Of a stretch of DNA of 64,000 bases, positions 7,974 through 50,354 are shown in pieces. Every line of letters begins with the position of its first letter. The stretch's first letter is position 1. This stretch comes from Heliocybe sulcata (lineage: Eukaryota > Basidiomycota > Agaricomycetes > Gloeophyllales > Gloeophyllaceae). Location of the stretch: the NCBI GenBank assembly GCA_004369045.1, contig ML213512.1:308698-372697 (forward strand), read 5' to 3'. The position numbers and the translations under genes were made by a program. The notes under the pieces are model-generated. The model did no database searches. It saw only the letters and a program-made list of their open reading frames with translations, and had not been told where the DNA came from.

Positions 7974-9230
7974 CTAGTACACGACTGCGTCCGGGACGAA
8001 GGTGAAGGTCTGTTTGCGAAATTTTCGAACATTTCTTCAGCCAACTGTCAAAAAAGCTGACGAATGGTGGACTTACAGCACTGTCTGCGCCGCCAAAATT
8101 GCTCGTGAAGGCGCCCAGGTCACCAGTCACCGCGAAGCTATTCGCACTGGGCACGTATGCTAGATAGGTCGCGGGAGTACCTGCGGGAGAGTGAGATACG
8201 AGGGAGACGCGATGGTCAGACACAGAGGTGATAGCCAGATCGAAGAATCAAACGCACTCCCGTCGGTGTTAACCCATTGCACGGTTAGAGCGTTGGAGCT
8301 CCGGTCCCAGGCCCACACCGCACTCTCCGTCGCATCCGGGACACCGGCTACTGCACTATAACTGCTCGGCTGCACGACTGCTGGTGAGCCCGGTGGAGCT
8401 GGATGAAGAAGCTCAAGTGGCTGCACATGAAAATGGCGGAAGATGAGGACGTACTTGAAGTCACGCCGCCGAGGTATGCGTAATTGTATGATCCAGAGCC
8501 GAGATTATTATCCGTATTGGCGAAACCGGTCATGAAGCCGAGCATAGGGAAGTTGCTTATGCCGTTCTGTGCAGCGCCCGCAAGTTCTCCATTGTTCAGG
8601 GGGTCCATCATTTATAGGAGGTTCAAGGCGAATACTTACCTCGGCGGTGATATCGAGCCGAGTGTAGCCAGCGGAGGACGCGCAGGAGGATGTGCCAAAG
8701 GATACGCGCAGTGCCGCCGACGCATCAAGGGTTGGTTGATACTCGCCGAAGCTGTTTGGAGTTGCAGCGACATAGCCCTGCAAGCCTCCGTCAACGGCTA
8801 CTACTCTGATGATACCAGTGTGTCTATGAGGAGGTAACATCAGCTCGGAATTTCCGAGGCTTTTTCTCATGCGTATCGGACGTACGAGGTAGTGGGACAC
8901 GAGGAAGGCGCCGCTGCGGGGTTACCAATTGGAGGGCACAGGAGAAGTGAGCTCGTGGACGACGCCGTGACGGTCATGCATCATACCTTGACGAGCCTTG
9001 ACACGCGTCGGTTTGCGCAGGGGCAATCCACGGGCAAGACGTTGGGCATTTGTCAGGCGCTTCCCGAAGCTTGACGCAACGCCATCCAAGGATCGCAAGC
9101 GCAGACCAGTAGGGTTAATTGAGGCATAGTCACGCGCAGCCAGAGTCTTGGCGGGATCCCCTGGCGCACCTTGGACGAGGGTCGCAGCAGCGGTCAAGAA
9201 GATAGCTAGGATAGCTTTGCTGTAGAACAT
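7974..9230 (-). CDS. Secreted basidiomycete multi-paralogue protein, copy A, 7 exons, 282 aa
   Basis: Exons in transcript order are 8987-9230, 8886-8913, 8640-8823, 8455-8566, 8258-8398, 8077-8180 and 7974-8009; all junctions keep frame. Residues 1-19 form a signal peptide ending ...LVQGAP. The TNAQRLARGLPLRKP block near residue 65 and the C-terminal TFTFVPDAVVY end are hallmarks of a large, uncharacterised secreted family of Agaricomycetes. Between them lie GYVAATPNSFGEY, LGFMTGFANT, YAYLGGVT and VQWVNTDGS. Exon 2 is only 28 nt and adds a Cys-containing linker (APSSCPTT). The function is unknown. The gene is the first copy of a tandem pair with the one at 10039-11288. Confidence 0.85.
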
Positions 9231-9328
9231 GATTAAAAGAATGACTGTGGTTGAGAGCGGCTGCGGTGGATGAAGTGTGAGCAAGTAGGAAACAAGGGAT
9301 AGCCCTGGAAACTCAATGCAGACCCTGC

Positions 9329-9342
9329 GGGGTTTATTAGGG
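9329..9342 (-). promoter_or_regulatory. Conserved promoter element of secreted-protein copy A
   Basis: On the minus strand CTAATAAACCCCGC lies about 100 bases upstream of the start codon; the identical block precedes copy B at the same distance. The TAATAAA core may be the TATA-type element, an inference from its retention in both copies. Confidence 0.35.
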
Positions 9343-10038
9343 GACACAGAGGGACATCGGAATGGAATAGACTGCATAGGGCACCTAGATCGCGGTGGCG
9401 TTTCATTATGCTGTGGAACAGTTAGATTGCCCGGACTATAGAGAAGTTGTGCCTGGGATCTGGAAAGTGATCTCGTGCGCTCCAATCGGATTCATAGGAG
9501 TCAATAAACGAGGAAGCGACCTAGAAGGGCATATTTCAATTTTTGCGCAGCATATAATGCAAGGCTCGAACGTACTCATTCACTTGTCACCCACGTTTAG
9601 GATGGAGTGACTCTGCTACTAGCAGTTGCCACCAGATTGGACGAAATATTATAGGAGTAAGGGGACGGGAGACGGAGAACACGGCTACTTCCGCGCAAGT
9701 CGTCTGGTATCAATCAGTAGCGTAACGGCGAGCACTATCATAGCAGGATGGTTATGTGATATGACTGGGCCCTCCCAGGGTGGACGAGCATCGAGAGAAC
9801 GACGACGTGTTTCAGAACGGCATACTCCGGTCCCTTCAAGTGCTTGTACTCAGAGCGAGTTGAGCTGTCAGATGTATTGGCAAGTATTGTCCCGGATTAG
9901 ACATTCGTAAAGAGCGGCTCTGTTGCCATCTATTGTGATGTTCATGGCGGAGGACAGACAGGGGATTAAAACGACTGTTCCGTTTATGCGGCATCAGCGT
10001 GCACTATATGATTATCATTAAGACAAGAGCCAACGCCT

Positions 10039-11288
10039 CTAGTACACAATTGAGTCCGGGACGAAGGTAAAGGCCTGATCGCATGGTTTTCAAACAGTTC
10101 TCCATCAACCAAATGCCGGAAACGCTGACCAAGGGAGGACTTACAATACGGGTTGCGGATCCAAATATGTTTCTGAAGGTGCCTAGGTCACCAGTCAAGA
10201 TGATGGCAGCGTCTCCGGCTAGGTATGCCAGGTAGGTCGTGGGAGAACCTGCCGGAGAGTGAGATGCGACGGAAAAGCGATGGTCAGACACAGAGGTAGA
10301 GCCCATGGTCGAAAAGTAAACGCACTTCCGTCCGTGTTAATCCACTGCACAGTCAAAGCGTTCGAGCTCGGTTCCCAGGTCCACACCGCACTTTCCACCC
10401 CGTCCGGGATACCGGATGCTGCGGAAAAACTGTTCGCCTGTTGGATTGCTGGGGAGCCCTCTGGGGCTGCATGAAGGAGGTAAGTGCCTGCACAGAGAAA
10501 TAGAGGAAAAGGAGAACGTACTCTGGGTGACACCGCCGAGGTATGCGTAATTCGATGATCCAGAGCCGATGCCATAGTTCGTATTGGCGAAACCGGTCAT
10601 GAAGCCGAGCAGAGGAAAGTTGCTTATGCCGTTCTGTACAATGTCACCGTTGTCAAGAGTTCCATCAGTTATAGCAGGTTCAAGGCGAGAACTCACCTCG
10701 GTAGTGACATCGAACTGGGAGTAGACAGCGGAGGACAGGCAGGAGGATGTACCAAAGGATACACGGAGCGCGCCAGACGCAGTGGTGGCTAATTCATACT
10801 CGCCAAAGATGTTTGGGGTTGAAGATACATAGCCCAGCACGCCGCCTGCATCAATGTCCGTTACTCTGATAGTACCAGTGTGCCTATGAGAGACAATGTC
10901 AGCTCGAAATTTCCGACGCTCTTTCCATACGAATCGGACGTACGAGATGGTGGGACATGAGGAAGGAGTAGCTACGGAGTTGGCAATTTAGAGGGACAGG
11001 AGAAGTAAGTTTGTCATCCACGACAGGGGGATCATGCATCATACCCTGACGAGCCTGGACGCGCCTTGGTTTGCGCAAGGGTAATCCACGGGCAAGACGT
11101 TGGGCGTTAGTCAGGCGTTTCCCGAAGCTTGACCCATCGCCATCCAAGGATCGCAAGCTCAGACCAGTAGGGTTAATTGATGCATAGTCACGCGCAGCAA
11201 GCGTCTTGGTAGGACCCTCTGGTGCACCTTGGACGAGGGTCGTAGCAGCGGTCAAGAAGATAGCTAGGATAGCTTTGTCGTAGAGCAT
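10039..11288 (-). CDS. Secreted basidiomycete multi-paralogue protein, copy B, 7 exons, 283 aa
   Basis: Exons in transcript order are 11045-11288, 10944-10971, 10697-10883, 10522-10633, 10326-10466, 10145-10248 and 10039-10074. Exon number, phases and sizes equal copy A except that exon 3 is one codon longer. The signal peptide, TNAQRLARGLPLRKP block, YAYLGGVT, VQWINTDGS and the terminal FTFVPDSIVY are retained, and the 28-nt exon 2 now encodes TPSSCPTI. Both copies keep open frames and consensus splice sites, which argues that both are under selection. The function is unknown; secretion is inferred from the N-terminus. Confidence 0.85.
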
Positions 11289-11462
11289 TGTTAAAAGAGC
11301 GACTGGGTGGTAGAGAGCGGCTAGGGTCGGTGGAATCTGAGCTAGAAAGCAAAGTAACAGCCCTGGAGACGAAGTCAGGCCTTGCGGGGTTTATTAGAGG
11401 ACATCGAGGGACATCGGAATGGAAGAGCCTCCGTAGTGCGGCCGAGACTAAAGTGGCGTTTC

Positions 11463-12383: not shown

Positions 12384-13350
12384 TTAGTACAACCGGGCCA
12401 TCGACGGGCCCGATACGAGCATACCAGGATGCTGGTGCTGCGGAGGATGAGAGCCCAGTGGGTTCGCAAAGGGTCCTGGGTTCGGTATTGGATTGGAATG
12501 CGCGAGGATCTCCGCTGAGGACATCTCCCGTCCATGAAGCATGTACGCCACTCGTAGCTCCTGTAGCGAATGTAGTTGGTAAATGAGGGTAAAACTCAGC
12601 AAGAGGACATCGCCCACCTCGAAGCTGTGCTGGTTGAACTGTGGTGAAGCTGTCATCGACAGCAGCTTGGCGCCTGTCTCGTCCCGCGCATAGACCTTGG
12701 GTTGGCCCTGCCCTTGTGCTATGTCCCCGAGCGACATAGACATCGTGTCTGACCGGGATAGAGGTGGTGGTAGTGGTGAAGGAGCTGGCACAGTCGGTAC
12801 GGGCTGAGGCGGGTATCTGAGACCGGCGCGGTAGGCATTGCAGCGCAGCTCCTGTACGGGCAAATTATAAGATGCGGATAAGTCTGAGGTGCCACTGAGG
12901 CGTACCTCTACTGAGAATCTGGAGAACTCTGGTTGTGCCGTAATATTCTGATAAATGACGCCTGACTCGGTCATTGGCCGGAACCAGTGAGCGGCCGGAG
13001 GTTCCGGAGGTGCGGTAGACGTCGAGGGAGTTGGCTGCGTGGCTGATGATGCAAATAAGGATGACGACGACGAGGACTGCTGGGGAACCGGAAATGGCTT
13101 GAAAGATGGTGGCAGCCCCATCGACATTCGCAGCTGATCATCGGCTGGTTGTTCGGGGCATGGCTGAGGAGGGTGAGCAATAGTGGAATAAGAGCGCAAG
13201 TAGTCCTGGACACGAGCTTCCTACAACAAGGTCGATGTCTTATTCAACAGCGAAGAGCCAGTCAATTCGCACCTCGAAACTAAGTTCATTCGGCCCCTGC
13301 CCTGTAGCGATGTGCATAAACATCTCTCTATTCAGCCTCGGATCAGCCAT
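12384..13350 (-). CDS. Protein with three GLEBS-like (Nup98/Rae1-binding) motifs, 4 exons, 267 aa
   Basis: Exons in transcript order are 13273-13350, 12906-13220, 12618-12851 and 12384-12560; all three introns are phase 0. The protein carries one motif three times: residues 14-33 (IATGQGPNELSFEEARVQDY), 119-138 (ITAQPEFSRFSVEELRCNAY) and 197-216 (MTASPQFNQHSFEELRVAYM). The pattern I-T-A-x3-F/Y-x3-S-x-E-E-L-R-x3-Y is that of the second half of the GLEBS segment, through which Nup98/Nup116 binds the beta-propeller Gle2/Rae1 and through which Bub1-type proteins bind Bub3. Each motif is interrupted by an intron between its two Glu codons. Linkers are rich in Pro, Ser and Gln, with no FG repeats, so this is not a complete nucleoporin. 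Binding to Rae1/Gle2 or Bub3 is inference. Confidence 0.75.
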
Positions 13351-13998
13351 GGTGTATTCAGAGTCTTTCTGTAAAACAAAACGTCAGTATTGGCGGGCAG
13401 AAGTGTGGCTTGTGGCTCTAGAATCCAAGGGCTTGCATGTGGTAAGAAGGAAAGCGCATGTGGCTCGAACCGTGACGTCGGCAAACGCGCTAGTCACAGT
13501 ACGTCACATGTCACCCTGCCCATACTTAGCGGGAATCCGTGCATCAATATCAATATTCAATTCCCGCACTCCCGCATTCCTCTGGACCGACTACTCACTG
13601 TTTCCTCTTTCCTCAAGAACCTTGCGCTTGGCGTGCCCGTGTCTAACTCTCCAGAATCTTGTCGGCTCTGCTTTGCCAGCTCGGATCTTCCAGACACCGT
13701 TTGCAGTCGAAATTTCGGAACGCCGCACGCTTCGCTCGGGACTTGGTTGACAGATCTTACTCTCTCTATGACCATTTGGCATCTCTACCTTGGGTGATTA
13801 TTACTTGGAGCTTCAAGGATTCCTTTCCGCGCCAAACTTCAGCAGTCTCTGGTTGACGCTACAATGTCAAACACGCTTCCTGAGACCTTCCAGAGTATCA
13901 TCTACTTACCTGGCTCTGAGGAACGAAGCTTTGAGGTTTGATTGCTTGTCTCTTCGCTGTCTGGCAGGCGCTGATACGTATCAAAGGAACTACGCATC
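13351..13998. other. Intergenic, divergent promoter region
   Basis: Lies between the start of the GLEBS-like gene (minus) and the hypothetical gene at 13999 (plus). No other gene is visible; untranslated exons are possible. Confidence 0.4.
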
Positions 13999-14499
13999 AT
14001 GGATTATCTTTTCGCCTACAGCACTACTAGCGCGCCACCTGTCCCATGTCCTGAGGGGCAGGCCCTCCGTGGAACAGAATCAGAACGTGCTACCTATGGT
14101 CTATCTCCCTCTACGTTTCAACCAACTGCAATAACCCCAAGAATGGAGGCAGAGCTGTTCCTCTTCGAGTTCTCTAGCCCGCATCAGGTAGTCCTTATTG
14201 CTGATTCTGTCAACAATTTCATAACGGTGCTGTAGGAACGGTCTCTGGTAGATTACCCCATGAGCGACTCCTCAGTGCCTTCGCCCCGTCTCACGATTCG
14301 GATACCCTCTCTTCTCGAACGCCAAGGGTCTCTTGATCGTGAAAATTGTCACTCTGGAAAACGTCCGCTTTCGCCTACAGGACTGCTTTTGAACGGCGTT
14401 TCAGATCCAACCAACGTTGCCGACCTCAAAGGCGGCGGCAGGCCAGTAAAGAAAATGCCTGTTCGGCACCGCCCAGTCACAGCAGTACCGGTCGCGTAG
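13999..14499 (+). CDS. Hypothetical small protein, 2 exons, 150 aa
   Basis: Two open stretches join in frame through a consensus intron: exon 13999-14187 ends ...FSSPHQ, the intron runs 14188-14235 (GTAGTC...TGTAG), and exon 14236-14499 begins ERSLVDYPMSD. The protein is hydrophilic, Pro/Ser-rich, with LTIRIPSLLERQGS and a basic C-terminal part (GGGRPVKKMPVRHRPV). I recognise no domain. The N-terminus could lie further upstream if a 5' exon exists. Support comes from the clean in-frame intron and coding-like composition only. Confidence 0.45.
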
Positions 14500-14971
14500 A
14501 CTCATAACAAAGGTCAGACGTCAGGAATGACCTATTCTCTCTTGGCCTCTTTGGATACGGCTTATGATTGCGTGGATTGGGTATTATGGATGTATTAATA
14601 CTGTGTATGATGTACAACATTCGATTTGTATTGATGTCGGGCTCTTATCTTGAAGACGCCTGTAGGAAAGCAATGGTGAATGTAACATATTCAACGGATA
14701 CTCTACTAAGGCGAGCTTTTCCACTGTCGCCTCTGTTAAGGCCGTCATGAGCTGGACCTTATATATAATAAATATAAACCGAAGAGCTGCGTGGCGTTTA
14801 ACTCATATGAACTATATGAGCGCTCGATTCTGAGTTTCCCACGATCTCTAGACTCCGTGCAAGTGATGGCTTCAAAACACGAGCCACAGCTTTACCAGTG
14901 TCTGGAGCAGCACCTGCGGTGGTTCACCACGGCCACTGATTTAAGTACCCTTGCAGCAGAAGCAGCCATCG

Positions 14972-17900
14972 ATGGCTACAAGTTCAACTGGTAAAGGTGA
15001 CGGCGAGGTCAGTTCTCTGGTCATTCAGTCGCAGGACCTTGGAATTAATGCCTGGCATATCGTAGGATACGTACGCCAGGGCGACCAAAGCAGAAGTGGA
15101 ACAGAACTGGGATCTGGCGTTCAAACTCTATGTTCGAGCAGTGGAACTATACTTACACGCAAGCCGCACAGCCACGGAGAATGTGAGCCGAGCGGAGTAC
15201 AAGGCGCAGGCCGCAAAAGCCTTGAACAGGGCCGAGAAGATCAAAGCTTTGAAGAGGGACCTCGCACCTGTCCCGGTGGATAGGTTTTCTGAACGCAAGT
15301 GATGTTCCACGCAAACACTCGGTCGCACAACGTCTGAAAACTCTTCGATCCCAGAACAACAATACTACATCCTCGACAAATCATGTGTAATAAATGGGAA
15401 ACGATTTGATCCTTGGAACAAACCATCGCCAGGAGCGCTGTGAATAGACAGTCTCCCCACTGTGCCGACCCTCTCTGACAATAGTACCCAGTGATCATGA
15501 ACAACCACGATTTTCCTCCGAACAAGTCGAGTGCTTGGCGGAATGGCGTCGACCTCGAGATGTGTCTCCCGAGTGCCGTCTTGCCTCGACAGCTCTTACT
15601 CCGCTGGACATCATACAGCATCTTGTGGCCGATTGCTCTGTTTGCTCGTCGCTCGCTGCCTGCATTGAGCACAGTAGACGATTTGGCACAAAAGTCAGTG
15701 AGCGACTGCCTTACTCCATAGGGCGTTCATAACTTCTGTGCCTGCGTATCAGCTAGGACTCTCATCTCTGTATCCACAAGACCCGAGTGGTACTCCGCGA
15801 GCCGCGGTTGATGGACAGTACACAGTGCAGGTTCTTTTCAACGGAACACATCGTCGAGTGGGTCGATCATCATTCATTCTGTCTCTAAGGGACTAATTTG
15901 ACCCTCCCGCAGATAAGTAAGACATGTAATGGAACTCGTTTGGTCATCTCATGAGCCTGTAGATATCGATGATAAGCTACCATACTCAACTGATGGAGTG
16001 CCATTATGCATGTCTGCCATAGCTCGGGGCGATCTTTGGCCTTCGTTGCTCGGAAAAGCAGTGAGTGTTACTATGCTCATTATTATGAGTTCTTACGCCC
16101 GCGTCAGTACATGAAACTGATGGGCGGGTACGACTTCCCTGGATCGTAAGAAATGGCGTTGGCTGCTGTCAGCCACTTGACTAATGCATACTCCAGGAAC
16201 TCCAGCATTGACCTACAGTAAGCGGCATTAGGTGGCAGGGGATCCAATCTGACATTCGTCAAGTGCTTTGATTGGCTGGATACCTGAACACCGGGAGTTT
16301 CAAAGGTAGGATTTCGATAGATGCGCTGAGTCATTCATGCTCAAGCTCACAGTGTAACTTTTGAACGTGAAACCACGTGGAATCGCTTATGTCTGGGGTT
16401 CAATGAAGGTAGCGGAGATAACATCTTACTGTCTTATTTTGCTGTTTGATTGTAGCTCTTCTCAGGTCGATGCCTTGCCACAGTGGGAACAGATGAAAGA
16501 CAGGATATTCAGTGGAACAATCGCCACCTGCTGTCTGCGCATTGTTACGCAGTCATTGGTATGTCTTATGCATTTTTCGCACTCTTCTTCGACATGCGAG
16601 TTTGATTTAGATGTACAGGAGGCCGGCGGAGAACGCACATTAACCCTGCTTGACCCCTTGATTTCTTTTGAGCGCAGGCTCACCGAGGAGACTGATACCG
16701 ACCAATCTCGTGGGTTTTTCGGGCGGCTCTATAACTCCAACCCGCTCTGACGGAATACAGGTGTTTGGAAGATGTCATGGGACAATGCATGCAGCGTTTT
16801 CCATAGTATATATCTCAGCTGGGATCCTGCACTTTTCCCTCATCAATTGACGTTCCATGGGTAAGGAGTTGTACGCCGCATCACAAGTTCTGACCCTGAC
16901 GCCACTCAGAATCTGGAGATCGAACGCTGACGACAACGGAGCACAGAGTAAGTTGAGCTCACGCTGCCTTCGGCGCATTATTACTCACCGGCAGTAGCCG
17001 CTCATTCCTTGTTGAAATTGCGTCCGACATCCGCTGCTGAGTCCGACTTGTGGGTAGTCCTGACACGCCACGTCGTCGACCGACGAAGAGCATCGGAGTA
17101 CATTTCCTTGCGAGTGGAGAAAGATGGTACTCTGTCTGACTATATGTCGATCAACAAGTTGGCCTCTCAGGTGAGTGTTCCACATCAGAAGCATATGGAT
17201 TGACTCGAAAGTATGAGCCGCAGGGCATGTATACCAATAACCCTCATACCTTGGTAAGGACTTCAGGGCATGTGTCCTGGGCTCCTTTCTGATGCGCCTT
17301 CAGGTGCGGACCCGACTTCAAGGGTCTGAGGACTTTGTTTGCGTATTAGCATCATATGATGGTGCTTTCGATGACACGGCTTATACTGTTACTGTGTATT
17401 CCACCGCTGAGCTAAGCTGGGACAAAACCGTTCCTCCACCAGCGCATGTTAAGAAGGTGCGTGTATCGCTTTCTAATATAGCTCATCCTTTATCGTGGCA
17501 TTAGGTTGAAGGCGCATTAACGATGAAGACCGCTGGAGGAAGTTGCTTATATTCCACCTTCATGCTCAATCCCCAGTATCATCTCAGGATTCATGGCGAT
17601 AACAACACGAAGTCCAAAACTGCGAACAAAGGGAAGATTGACTTCTTGTTGCATGGAGACAGAGGTATCCCTCTTAATGTCACAGTGCTGTGGTCCCAGG
17701 GACAGCGGATTACCGAGTGAGGTGGACCGAATTTGGAGCCTGGAATATACTAAGTGCATCCGCAGAGTTAGCCCGAACGATATCGCAGTCGGTTCCGGTC
17801 CGTATAGCTATGGCCTTGCCCATGCCAAGAAAGACCTTCCCCGTGAGTTTCTTTCTTCTTAGTATGGCTTGTGAGCTGATGGTGCGGCAGCCGGAGACTA

Positions 17901-27021: not shown

Positions 27022-30000
27022 ATGTCGGGCGCTACGAGGAAAGATGTCCAGAGGGCGGGGTATGGCCCAGCCAGAGTGTCGTGCGAGGAATGCCGGAGGT
27101 GAGTAGCGAGAGGTAGCCCCGTCTGCAGGAGAGTAAACCAATTATCTCAGGATGAAATCGCGGTGCGACAAGCAGCGCCCATGTGGTCCATGTATACGAC
27201 GAGGCTGCGCAGACATATGCCCCAACGGTAGGTGTCAGTAGGGATGACGGCCCCCTGGTCAGACAGGACTGACAGCCACCTCAGGAACATTGCCAACACG
27301 CAGAGTGTTTAGGTGTGTCTACTGCCTTTCCAAGCAGGGGTGGCGACTCATGCATCGTCTACGCAGATCAATATATGCCGACAAGGAGGCCCTACAGCAG
27401 AAGATTGAGCAACTATGTAACCGAATACAGTCATTAGAAGATGCCGTTCGCTCCATGTACTCTAAGGTCTCCCCGGACACACATCCCCTCCTGAGCGAGG
27501 ACTTGCTCGCCATCAAGCTCACCGACAGACTACCCGAGGGCTTTATGGGATCTGACGCCAGCTCTTCGAGTAACGCTCTACCAGAAGAACCGACGGACGG
27601 TCTGACAGAAGCATTTGGGACACTGACAATTGGAGAAGACGGGCGAGCCAAGTTCTTCGGACGGTCCGCGGGGCCCGAGGTGCGTCCCGTCTGCAATGCA
27701 GTGCAGATTGATGGCGAAGCATGATTAACCTTACCTCTAATCTCGCGTCGCAGATTCTCTTCCAGGTACGCATATGATCTCCGCCCATATTGCGGTTACA
27801 TCCCACTAACATCAGCTACCATAGGGTTTACGTGGAGAGGATACACCGGAAGGAGACCAGAGCGGCCCATCGTTCCTCGAGTTCAGCCCGGGACGCTCAC
27901 CAAATATCGAGCCTACGCAGTCGAGCGAGTACGACGACGAGACACTCGCGCACCTCGAATTAACCCTCCCAACGGAGCACCGAGCCTCCGGCCTCTGCGA
28001 GTCCTACCTGGAACACTCCTCCTGGTTCTTCGGGCCCATCCAGCGTGACGAACTCATTAACGAGATCCTCAACCCAATATACGCCTCTATCGCAAGTCAG
28101 AAGAAGGGCCACCTGCGCTCGTACAACCCGCAGAAGCTCACAGTGCTCTTCTTGGTCCTGGCGCACGGTGCGCTCGCGGACCTTGGTCTGCCGCCGTATA
28201 ATGCCGAGGCGGAGTGCTATTACCAGGCGGGCAGTTCGATGATTTCGATACGAAATATCACGGACACGCCGACCATTGAGACTGTACAGGCATTTGCGTA
28301 CATGAGTGTATACAATGTGCTTTGTGAGAAGAGGTATGGTCTGGGGAATGCGTGGCCGCTGATATCGGTCGCGGTGAAGTTGTCGCAAGCTGTGAGTTTG
28401 TTCTTGTTACTTTGACATCGTGTTCTCATCTTTCTGCTTGCAGATTGGTCTCCGTAAGTAAACATCTCCTGTCTGGGTATCTGAAGTAACCGATTGCTCC
28501 TCGTTGGCAGATCTCGATAGTTCTTACTGGCTACTGGATGAAACGACAACACACAGACGAAGACTGTTATTCTGGGAGCTTGTCTCCCAAGAGCTACCAA
28601 TGGTACGCCATTTGTTGAGGTCGTATGATTACGAGTGCTAACGATGCATCAAACCATAGAGCCTGAGTACTGGGCGACCACCATCGACCCATTGGGACTT
28701 TGCGAACTGCAAAGTACCAACACCAGAGCCTGACCAAGTGGTCGACTTAGTGGACGAATGTGAGTAATCGAACCATATAAACTCGCACCTCCACTCACTC
28801 TCGCTTTCGTGTCAGACTGTACCTGGCGGTACACGTTTAACCGGGACATATGGTGGCAGGCGGTGAAGCTCACCATCGCCGGCCAGACCCCTAGCTACCG
28901 TGCTATCCTCGATCTCGACCGGAAGCTTGGCTCAATTACGATGCCCAACTCGCTTAGAGCGGAGTCCGAACCGACAGAACTAGACTACTATGAGCCTACG
29001 GCCTGTATGCGGAGCTTGTTCGCCAATCACATACAGTACTACGGTGAGACGTCTGAGGTCCGGTAATTCAATGGTGCTAATGTTAACGCCATTCAGTGCG
29101 GATGTACATCCACCGACCGTTCTTCGCGAAGGCGTTTTTGGACCATTCGGCAGATCCCATTCATAGCCCGTACGGCGTGTCGGTGATGACGACGTACCGG
29201 ACGGCGCTGCTCATTCTGAAGAGCCTGACGCACTTCTTGCAACGCGCGCCCGTGTTGTGTCAACGCTTTTTCTTCGTGTGGTTGCATGCGTTTTCGGCTG
29301 CGGTACGTTGTTGTCCGTGCTGAAAGTCCGCATGGCTAAGGAGACTGTCAATAGATAGTGGTTGCGTTTATAGCCAACAAGTCGCCTAATCCGACTATCG
29401 CAAGAGGCGCTTTTGACCGCCTGAATGCCGCCATCGAGTTGTTTGAGAAGGGAGCGGCACAATCGCATCGAGTGCAAATATCCTTGGTAGGAACTCTGTT
29501 TCTGGGCGTAATCAGTTATTCACCGTCTTCCTAAAGCCGATCCTGCGCGAGCTACGAGATAAAGCGCACTTGAAGCTCTCTCGGCTGCCCGGCGCGGACG
29601 AAGCACTCGCTAATCTCGACGACGATGATCATCTGGCGACGTTCGTCGGCAGGACGAAGTTCAAGCACGTCTCGCAGTCACAATCGAGCCCGCACTCGTC
29701 GGCGGATTCACCCGACTCACAGCGGACTGATATGACATCAGACTCGTTTCCTCCCGCGGGCGACAAGCTGAATTCGAATATTGCGAGTGCCATGCAGAGT
29801 ACGTTTGACCCCGGCAGCCTGACAGCGCCATTGTCCCTTCAGTACTCTTCCACTGGCAGGGTGACTCAGGGACTTCCAGGTACACAAGATGCGGCGATGG
29901 ACGACCCGCAGGCGGCGTTCGGGCTAGGTGCATCCTACAATATTTACCGGACGTATCTGGATCCTGTAACTCCGAATGTGGGTCCGAGTGCTTTTACTGC

Positions 30001-47101: not shown

Positions 47102-50100
47102 ATGTCTATATGGGCTCCCCAGCAACAGGGTCTGCAGGAGATCCTGCAGACTATCCACGATTCGACGGATACCCAGAACAGAGAAATCCAACGAACAATC
47201 ACGCATGTGAGGGATATGGGTTTTGTCCATACTGCCGGATTCTAATATGATTCACAGAAACTGAATCAATTTACCCGAGTCCCAGACTACATCGCCTATC
47301 TAGCCTATGTTCTTGGCCAAATGCCCCAGGAGGAGGAGCGCATCCGAACGATTGCTGGATATTTACTCAAGAATAACTCACGACTCATCCTTCATTCATC
47401 GCCACAAGTGGCGCAGTATGTCAAGAATACGGTCCTGCAGGCGTTCGGAGACTCGTCCGATATGATACGGAATGCAGCCGGTCAGGACTTGGTAGCCTTT
47501 CTTGGAGCGCTTGAGCCGAGAAATTGGCCGGAGTGTCTGCAGCAGCTTGTCGCCGCGCTCGATTCAACTGATTTAGGTGTCCAAGAGGTGTGTACATTCT
47601 TCAGGGTCCAAATAAGCTTTGTGATCGGCGGTTTGGTTGGGTTCATATAACTGTCATTGATTAATACCGCCCTATAGGCCGCCTTCAATGTGCTGGAGAA
47701 GGCATGCGAAGATTACCCCCGCAAGTTGGACATCGAGATCAATGGCACAAGACCGTTGGATTACATGATCCCCAAATTCCTGATGCTGTCTGAGCATCCT
47801 GATCCACGTATGCGCGCTCATGCTGTCGCATGCCTCTCGTATTTCGTGCCGATCAACTGCCAGTCGTTGTTTGCACACATCGATACTTTCATTGCATGCC
47901 TTTTCAAACGCGCGTCGGATGAGGATCCTGCGGTTCGCCGGCACGTCTGCCAGGCGCTTGTACTCCTGCTCGCGTCGCGGCCGGAAAAGCTCATGCCCGA
48001 GATGAACAACGTTGCGGAGTATATGTTGTACTCGACCAAGGACAAGAATGAGCATGTCGCGTTGGAGGCCTGCGAGTTCTGGCTCACGTTCGCAGAGGAT
48101 GTCGATCTCGCGCCTTACCTGCATCCGCTGCTAGGGAAAGTGGCTCCCGTCCTGCTCGATTGCATGGTGTATGGGGAGGATGATCTGCTGTGGCTGGAGG
48201 GTGATGCGGAGGATGCAGAGGTGCCCGACAAAGAGACCGATATAAAGCCGCGGCACTATGGCGGGAAATCGCATGGGTATGAGCGGGAGGGTGAGGTGGT
48301 AAATGGTGAGGCAGGTGAGGCAGGTGCACCAAAGCCGAAGGTTAGCGCTTACGGCGAGGAGACGATCGACTCTGATGAGGAGGATGAATACGAGATGGAT
48401 GATGATGACTTTGCGGACGAGATGTCCACTGAGTGGAACTTGCGCAAATGTGCGGCTGCTGCTTTGGACGTCCTAGCTGTTAGGTTCGGGGCCGATCTGC
48501 TCAACGTACTTCTGGACCCTCTGAAGCAAAAGTTGTGGAACGCGGATTGGCTGCAGAGGGAGAGTGGTATATTGGCGCTGGGTGCTATGGCTGAGGGTAA
48601 GAGCTTTCATTAATTCGCGGTCTTGACCTCCCATTCATCGGTTGCCGCATTCAGGGTGCATCGACGCCGTCGAGCCTCACCTTCCGATGTTGGTTCCATA
48701 TCTCATCCAGACCCTGAGTGACCCTAAGGTTTGCAGATCTCATGCGGTCCTTGCGTGCTGCCCTGACGTCTTACATCTAGCCCTTGGTCCGCTCCATCAC
48801 TTGCTGGACGCTGGGCCGGTACGCTAGCTGGTGTACACAGCAGACCACGGAGGACCATAAGAACCAGTTCTTTGTTCCTACGATGGAAGGTGTACGTGAA
48901 GTTATTGATTAGCCTGATGACCCTCGATCTCATATGCCCTTCAGCTACTTCGAATGGTTCTTGATAATAACAAACGGGTGCAAGAGGCTGGTTGCAGCGC
49001 GTTTGCGACTCTTGAGGAGGATGCCGGACCGGAGCTGGCGCCTTATCTCGAGCCTGTCCTCCGAAACCTGGTCTTCGCATTCGACAAGTATCAGCACAAG
49101 AACATGCTGATCCTGTACGACGCTATTGGTACGCTTGCGGATGCGGTTGGGCGGGCTCTTGCGAACCCGATGTATGTTGATATCCTGATGCCGCCACTAA
49201 CGAAGAAGTGGGCCAAGCTCAAGGATGACGACGAGGATCTCATTCCATTGTTGGAGGTAAGTCGGTGCTCGCTATACGTCTGATCTAAGTCTTCTCACTG
49301 GTACGTCAGTGTTTGGCGTCAGTGACGATCGCGATGGGCCCTGCGTTCCTACCATATGCTGGACCGGTCTTCGAACGATGCACGACCATAATCCACAACG
49401 CCCTCCTGGCATATCAGGCGTACCAGCAGAACCCAGATATGGATGAACCCGACCGTTCATTTCTGGTTGTTGCGCTAGACCTCCTGTCGGGCTTGACGCA
49501 GGGTCTTGGTATGGCATTGGAACCCTTACTTACCCAGACGCAACCGAACTTATTCAGCCTGCTTACGGTGTGCCTTAAACACCCCCAAGCACCCGTACGG
49601 CAGTCCGGCTATGCGTTAGTTGGTGATATGGCAATGTCCTGCTTCCCGCTGCTTAGGACGCATATGCCGGGCATCATGAACGAGCTGATCCTGCAACTCG
49701 ACCCAGAACCGAAGGTGGAATTCATTAGCGCCTGCAATAACGCCGCGTGGTCGGTAGGAGAAGTGGCGTTGCGCTATGGTCGTGGTGAGAGTCGATTATG
49801 TTCTCGACGAGGATCTTCTATTAACGGCTTTTCTGGAACTGTAGATGATCCCGAGTTCCAGCAATGGGTTGGACCCTTGATCTCCCGACTAATACCCATT
49901 CTTCTGCACCCTAAAGCGCCGCGTAGCTTACACGAGAATGCAGCCGTGTCAATAGGGCGTATTGGTCTTATGCATCCTGCTCTGGTTGCTCAGCACCTGC
50001 CTGAGTTTGCGATGGCGTGGTGCCAGGCTCTGTACGAAATACGAGACAATGAGGAGAAGGACTCCGCATTCCGTGGATTCTGCACCCTTGTGCAGACGAA

Positions 50101-50354
50101 CCCGTCCGGGATCGCGAAGGTCAGGTGACCGTACCTCATGCAGTGACACGAGTGCTAAAATTGCGCTATTTCAGAGCATCCTTTGGTTCTGCAACGCCAT
50201 CGTGCGGTGGAACTCGCCTACGCCGGAGTTAAATTCGATGTTTCAAACGCTCCTCAACGGATTTAAGCAGCATGATCCGGCCGGCTGGGCACAGCAAGTG
50301 GCGAGCTTCCCACCCGGGATTCAGGAAAGGCTGCACCAGCGGTACGGAGTGTAA
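47102..50354 (+). CDS. KAP104: Karyopherin beta-2 (transportin), 9 exons, 926 aa
   Basis: Exons: 47102-47206, 47258-47587, 47678-48596, 48655-48728, 48781-48891, 48945-49256, 49310-49784, 49845-50119 and 50175-50354. HEAT-repeat importin of usual length (yeast Kap104 about 918). Diagnostic stretches are [51 protein letters not shown], the acidic loop ([20 protein letters not shown]) that releases cargo when Ran-GTP binds, [59 protein letters not shown] and the terminal QRYGV. It imports PY-NLS cargoes such as hnRNP proteins. The intron after exon 4 has a non-consensus GTTTGC donor. Confidence 0.96.

Follow-up and report, generated by a model that had tools for sequence, protein, structure and literature searches.

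In the portion of the literature covered here, GLEBS is described as a single motif carried by large nucleoporins, by checkpoint proteins or by BuGZ. The available text of PMC3783196 reports that E201/E202 of Nup98 form salt bridges with R216/R172 of Rae1, the equivalent Glu pair of Nup116 being E154/E155, and that in HeLa cells overexpressing the Nup98 GLEBS, Rae1 is mislocalized and poly(A)+ RNA accumulates in the nucleus. According to the part of PMC9203020 consulted, the loss of any of four of the five GLEBS segments of Neurospora BuGZ abolishes Bub3 binding. Among the GLEBS literature matches listed, no fungal protein with multiple GLEBS motifs, or of the Nup98 type but non-FG, is apparent from the titles and the opening lines of the abstracts.

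The window, i.e. the entire stretch of 64,000 nucleotides analyzed from contig ML213512.1 of Heliocybe sulcata, contains at 12384-13350 on the reverse strand a gene, designated P, whose model and codon-usage score point to a Pro/Ser-rich, non-FG protein of 267 residues encoded by four exons. These exons (13350-13273, 13220-12906, 12851-12618 and 12560-12384) measure 78, 315, 234 and 177 nt, all multiples of three, and are separated by three predicted GT..AG introns of phase 0. Intron 1 (13221-13272, 52 nt) falls between Glu26 and Glu27, intron 2 (12852-12905, 54 nt) between Glu131 and Glu132 and intron 3 (12561-12617, 57 nt) between Glu209 and Glu210, the respective junctions being GAG/GAA, GAG/GAG and GAG/GAG, where the slash marks the splice point. 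These three intron sites are the only Glu-Glu pairs of the protein. The four-exon model with phase-0 introns between Glu codons had already been put forward in a previous sequence-only reading of this DNA and could be reproduced. Since introns 2 and 3 are in frame and devoid of stop codons, the frame 13220-12384 is open even when unspliced; the predicted removal of these two introns rests on the motifs that they interrupt, and that of intron 1 receives comparative support from the paralogue described below.

Codon usage was scored with a training set of 2125 codons taken from seven long ORFs of the window. The annotated frame obtained the best score of the six frames in all four exons of P, with a weak absolute score for the gene (0.055 bits per codon). 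Read in frame, intron 2 scored -0.244 and intron 3 -0.031, the latter value being near that of exon 2 (-0.002). Proline plus serine make up 27% of P, and neither P nor its paralogue contains any FG dipeptide, in agreement with the earlier description of the product as a non-FG protein. An AlphaFold2 model of the unspliced frame, computed from the single sequence without an alignment, had a mean pLDDT of 36, with no confident fold and no folded domain. The protein is probably disordered, as would fit both its Pro/Ser content and this model of the unspliced frame. A search of NCBIfam produced no match for P or for the paralogue.

Three GLEBS-like motifs were located in P, at residues 14-33 (motif 1, codons 13311-13273 and 13220-13200, within 13200-13311), 119-138 (motif 2, codons 12944-12906 and 12851-12831, within 12831-12944) and 197-216 (motif 3, codons 12656-12618 and 12560-12540, within 12540-12656). 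Their positions are those given by the sequence-only reading, which had also attributed the full core to every copy. Counted by eye over the ten fixed positions, the full core is present in motif 2 only (10/10), motifs 3 and 1 fitting at 8 and 6 positions. Motif 3 displays Met for Ile and a Tyr one place early, and in motif 1 the Thr, Ala, Phe and Leu are all absent from their places; of the three copies, motif 2 alone is clean. The human NUP98 sequence given in the same reading is identical to PDB chain 3mmy_B at 20/20 positions. When P was compared with the human NUP98 20-mer, the three best non-overlapping windows started at residues 119, 197 and 14, and the first, second or third window score was reached by none of 2000 shuffled versions of P. 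The gapless alignment of motif 2 to NUP98 was confirmed, with 10/20 identical residues; motifs 3 and 1 are each identical at 7/20 positions, and motif 3 at 10/20 to the Nup98 of PDB 9hcj_U0. The Ser, the Glu-Glu pair and the following Arg are kept in all four motifs of the window (three in P and one in the paralogue), every one of which contains E-E-x-R, an adjacent Glu pair followed by x-R that is considered here as a sequence feature only.

A comparison of P with the 24736 families of Pfam, at E-values up to 10, retrieved a single family, Nup98_GLEBS (PF21240), with an E-value of 2.4e-4 and a score of 21.6 bits, below the gathering cut-off of 27. The match involves residues 117-138 and covers profile positions 18-39 of 39 only. 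The whole paralogue matched Nup98_GLEBS at E 0.28, with 11.7 bits against the same 27-bit cut-off, and its motif submitted as a fragment matched that family only, at E 0.045. Among the fragments of P, motif 2 retrieved Nup98_GLEBS at E 0.082 and motifs 1 and 3 retrieved no family. Reversed or shuffled controls remained without any Pfam match in 5/5 cases. The N-terminal half of GLEBS (profile positions 1-17) is absent from both proteins, the match beginning at position 18 in P and at position 27 in the paralogue, where 13 and 11 residues, respectively, precede the first motif.

Profiles made solely from the window motifs were also searched against 177635 PDB sequences; these profiles share rows and the searches are therefore not independent. 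The profile of the three P motifs gave ten matches, of which the top eight were Nup98 GLEBS chains (E 0.0087 to 0.79). With all four motifs, Nup98 GLEBS chains occupied the top eight of 15 places (E 8.7e-5 to 0.14), the next other protein being a pyridoxal kinase at E 0.92. Upon removal of P motif 2, the best match was the Nup98 of 9hcj (E 3.4e-5), and five pyridoxal kinase sequences (0.13-0.17) ranked above the 3mmy-type NUP98 chains (0.19-0.27). The profile of the two motif-1 copies, from P and the paralogue, had Nup98 as its sole match (E 0.37), and a column-shuffled control profile retrieved two unrelated proteins and no Nup98. One of the eight Nup98 GLEBS chains, 7byf_B, bears the name Peptidase S59 domain-containing protein, and its 20-residue motif is that of the human protein. 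A whole-protein phmmer search of P against the PDB found nothing at E up to 10. These comparisons support well a resemblance of the window motifs to GLEBS of the Nup98 type over its C-terminal half, and do not support a full GLEBS. The GLEBS resemblance that the sequence-only reading had proposed to check by profile search is thus retained for the C-terminal half, with a Pfam score that stays below the cut-off.

On sequence comparison, a second gene, designated Q, is a diverged paralogue of P; it is absent from the earlier reading and new here. Located with P by TBLASTN at 13864-14499 on the forward strand, it lies head-to-head with P and has a predicted product of 178 residues encoded by three exons (13864-13935, 13987-14187 and 14236-14499). 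According to the gene models, the divergent start codons are separated by an interval of 513 bp (13351-13863), which constitutes a shared upstream region. The TBLASTN searches were run in the window with the low-complexity filter and the composition correction turned off. Q was found at E 2.5e-7 with the whole of P and at E 2.0e-7 with a 36-residue piece of P exon 2, the next match to this piece being at 0.014. The other matches of P are Pro/Ser-rich stretches, the best of which (E 1.3e-5, at 3804-3463) has an internal stop, and they were taken as low complexity. The local alignment of P and Q scored 131, the best of 1000 shuffles reaching 71. The two proteins align without gaps over 42 residues, 22 of them identical, in a block that includes motif 1 of P and runs across the first splice junction (SFE/EARVQDYLRSYST...PPQPCPE in P, SFE/ELRIMDYLFAYST...PPVPCPE in Q). 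The identical residues use the same codon in 8 cases and a changed codon in 14, and over the 42 codons, positions 1, 2 and 3 differ 18, 17 and 28 times, a distribution that argues for constraint on the motif-1 block at the protein level.

The GLEBS-like motif of Q occupies residues 12-31 (codons 13897-13935 and 13987-14007, within 13897-14007). Apart from its Pfam match, it is the best window of Q against both Nup98 20-mers, with a score that was reached by none of 2000 shuffles. The predicted intron 1 of Q (13936-13986, 51 nt, phase 0) separates Glu24 from Glu25 in SFE/ELR; a second Glu-Glu pair, at residues 19-20, carries no intron. The predicted intron 2 (14188-14235, 48 nt, phase 0) falls between Gln and Glu, with no recognizable motif at this place. 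A second, degenerate motif was considered there and rejected: the second-best window of Q, starting at residue 84, scores only 12 and 9 and, although it spans the junction, does not line up with the Glu pair. No significant similarity links the part of Q past residue 70 to the part of P past residue 60 (776/1000 shuffles reach the score). The codon-usage score of Q is slightly negative overall (-0.028); the annotated frame is the best one in exons 1 and 2, and in exon 3 it scores -0.079, two other frames being better. Given the loss of likeness past about residue 70, the position of intron 2 away from any motif and the frame of exon 3, we place the least trust in the 3' part of the Q model. 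Following motif 1, a block of the form DYL..YST...PP.PCPE is kept in both proteins (13987-14064 on the forward strand in Q, 13220-13143 on the reverse strand in P). Most of it lies beyond the Tyr at which the GLEBS profile of Pfam stops, and it may constitute a second binding element.

The first introns of P and Q both split the Glu pair and have in common a 20-nt block, identical at 17 positions and placed at nearly the same offset. Among the 10 possible intron pairs only this one stands out, its similarity being reached by 1/1000 shuffles, or roughly 1 in 100 once the ten comparisons are allowed for. The shared block together with the common splitting of the Glu pair suggests that the first intron is most likely older than the duplication that gave rise to P and Q. 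The block, which reads ATTG..TG.CTCTTCGCTGT in both genes (13221-13272 on the reverse strand, 13936-13986 on the forward strand), was kept although 14 of the 22 shared codons changed, and it may accordingly have a role in splicing.

The history of the introns within P is less clear-cut. The regions around each motif were cut out on the spliced model and their alignment scores compared with those of 1000 shuffles. The regions of motifs 2 and 3 align without gaps with a score of 59 (shuffle maximum 43) and those of motifs 1 and 2 with one gap and a score of 51 (shuffle maximum 46); the likeness of motifs 1 and 3 is weaker, 9/1000 shuffles reaching the score. Exon 2 resembles exon 3 to an extent attained by 2/1000 shuffles, and exon 4 is not convincingly similar to exons 2 and 3 (331/1000 and 27/1000). 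The triple-repeat score of P was reached by 4/1000 shuffles and that of its best pair by 0/1000, so that the internal repeat, taken alone, is suggestive rather than strong. AG/G is a favored site of intron insertion, and all five intron junctions of P and Q are of this form. The introns of P could consequently have been gained independently at GAG/GAG, the modular appearance of the exons being accidental. Such parallel insertion would be in keeping with the absence of any likeness among the three introns of P, whose pairwise scores are reached by 947, 541 and 283 of 1000 shuffles. The coding sequence of P, however, contains 13 AG/G sites, and three random picks among them would strike all three motifs once in 286; the similarity of exon 2 to exon 3 and that of intron 1 of P to intron 1 of Q, the best of the 10 pairs, also speak against it. 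We consider independent gain doubtful, yet a serious contender; it concerns the origin of the introns only and is compatible with the function proposed below. The duplication of modules together with their introns is favored over it because of the likeness of exons 2 and 3 and of the motif regions and because of the 1-in-286 coincidence, and is best described as plausible but unproven. The exon duplication with introns advanced by the sequence-only reading is thereby sustained by exons 2 and 3 and by the regions of motifs 2 and 3, and weakened by motifs 1 and 3, by the dissimilar introns and by the favored AG/G site; inheritance of a Glu-pair-splitting intron through gene duplication is supported for intron 1 of P and intron 1 of Q.

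Other coding regions were noted in the window. Adjoining Q, at about 14865-15303 on the forward strand, two exons joined by eye encode a short protein consisting of little beyond an MIT domain (PF04212, E 1.3e-8). On the reverse strand, the ORFs 8922-9491 and 10899-11390 form a pair judged by eye to be similar over about 100 residues, with M-L/F-Y-x-K-A-I-L-A-I-F-L-T-A-A...ARDYASINPTG in common; their products look like a tandem pair of small, secreted proteins, and the ORF 10899-11390 has no Pfam match. A HEAT-repeat gene is found at 47678-50128 on the forward strand, with HEAT matches in Pfam and a weak TPR_IMB1 match below the cut-off; we take it to be a transportin-like gene, which would make it another nuclear-transport gene of the window. 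Finally, 27825-28415 gives a Fungal_trans match of 23.1 bits for a cut-off of 23.

The explanation that we retain, and to which we grant about an even chance of being correct, is that P and Q are divergent paralogues encoding small, probably disordered non-FG proteins that would dock on Gle2/Rae1 through half-GLEBS units and thereby tune export. The recognizable units, three in P and one in Q, would each repeat the C-terminal half of the sequence by which Nup98-type proteins bind Gle2, and most likely the Glu-Glu pair of each unit anchors it to the top face of the WD40 propeller of Gle2/Rae1. P could then behave as a soluble, trivalent ligand: away from Nup98, it would hold Gle2/Rae1, cluster it or compete for it, its action on this factor tuning the export of mRNA or of pre-60S particles. 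Direct support exists for the motifs and their specific likeness to the GLEBS of Nup98, for the paralogue, for protein-level constraint on the block around motif 1 and for the position that intron 1 occupies in both genes; splicing, disorder, binding, a choice of Gle2/Rae1 over Bub3 and an effect on export are what we infer. By analogy with the BuGZ segment deletions that abolish Bub3 binding, as given in the part of PMC9203020 consulted, half a motif such as those of P may bind weakly.

The partner might also be Bub3, as in Bub1, Mad3 and BuGZ, with P acting in the spindle checkpoint or in transcription control. GLEBS is common to Rae1 and Bub3 ligands, and the Glu pair of Neurospora BuGZ is needed for Bub3 binding in the available text of PMC9203020. 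The ELM pattern for Bub3, as quoted in the part of PMC11917139 at hand, fits 0/3 P motifs and 0/2 Nup98 motifs, human included; by pattern, the P motifs thus resemble Nup98 rather than the Bub3 class. Motif 1 of P fails it at one position only and so, judged by eye, does ERSFEELRI of Q, with no match over the whole Q motif. No Bub1, Mad3 or BuGZ occurs among the PDB profile matches, a weak objection as the human NUP98 motif retrieves none either, and neither protein has a Pfam match to a zinc finger, a kinase or a TPR. On balance a Bub3 ligand seems improbable, Rae1 being preferred from the residue pattern alone.

The motifs could otherwise be derived from GLEBS, or merely resemble it, and serve another partner such as a different WD40 protein, in which case P and Q would form a disordered family peculiar to their lineage and unrelated in function. 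The match confined to the C-terminal half, the drift of motifs 1 and 3 of P and the conservation of DYL..YST...PP.PCPE mostly outside the GLEBS profile would all suit such a family; yet both Glu and the Arg are invariant in 4/4 motifs, and no Pfam family or PDB protein was matched better than the Nup98 GLEBS, so that we hold another partner to be rather unlikely while allowing it some weight. Fortuitous resemblance or the remains of decaying pseudogenes might be suspected from motif 1, with only 6/10 core positions, from the small size and low-complexity linkers of the protein and from the codon usage, weak in P and slightly negative in Q (0.055 and -0.028 bits per codon). The shuffle tests, the clean controls of the Pfam and PDB profile searches, the synonymous bias of the divergence between P and Q and the open spliced frames of both genes make this highly improbable.

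A bolder extension of the Gle2/Rae1 reading would posit a lineage-specific fungal family of multi-GLEBS decoys that titrate Gle2/Rae1, with splicing as a switch. Every motif is complete only after intron removal, and introns 2 and 3 of P are short, in frame and free of stop codons, so that a transcript retaining them would still be translated to full length, with individual motifs disrupted. If this were true, the valency of P for Gle2/Rae1 would be tuned by splicing; we regard it as distinctly improbable. Searches for relatives were performed in collections that say little about fungi. The pattern of P gave 2 matches and 0 confirmed orthologues in viral_contigs (a viral collection), and the exon-2 alignment of P and Q gave 87 pattern matches in genome_contigs (prokaryotic) and 27 in viral_contigs, 0 being confirmed in either. 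Fungal databases may well contain orthologues that have escaped annotation.

We judge the finding as a whole to be genuine, out of the ordinary and coherent; the paralogue and the intron common to both genes reinforce it, and splicing and binding stand as predictions. The closest known system is the GLEBS of Nup98/Nup116 (PF21240; PDB 3mmy, 4owr, 7vpg and 9hcj), which has the ITA...F/Y...S.EELR core in the same register, was the best match in the Pfam and PDB profile searches, and whose salt-bridging Glu pair is also present, as a sequence feature, in the window motifs. P differs from it by three copies in place of one, Q having a single copy; unlike Nup98, both lack FG dipeptides and any autopeptidase match in Pfam, and the profile is matched over its C-terminal half alone. 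Each copy is split at the Glu pair by a predicted intron, which may be a further difference. The Bub3-binding GLEBS of Bub1, Mad3/BubR1 and BuGZ (ELM LIG_GLEBS_BUB3_1, in the part of PMC11917139 consulted) shares the S-x-E-E core with the motifs of P, which also possess the Glu pair described as essential in BuGZ (PMC9203020, available text); it differs in the flanking positions, where 3/3 P motifs misfit the ELM pattern, and in the zinc finger, kinase or TPR that Pfam does not find here. An intron between the two contact Glu residues, common to both products of a gene duplication old enough for 14 of the 22 shared codons to have changed, would offer a test case for the spread of a short linear motif by exon modules. 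If the proposed function is correct, a factor that serves the export of mRNA and ribosomes would have a natural competitor or scaffold in a small non-FG protein made up mostly of linker and three half-GLEBS modules, and P would be the natural counterpart of the overexpressed-GLEBS experiment in which, according to the available text of PMC3783196, mRNA accumulates in the nucleus.
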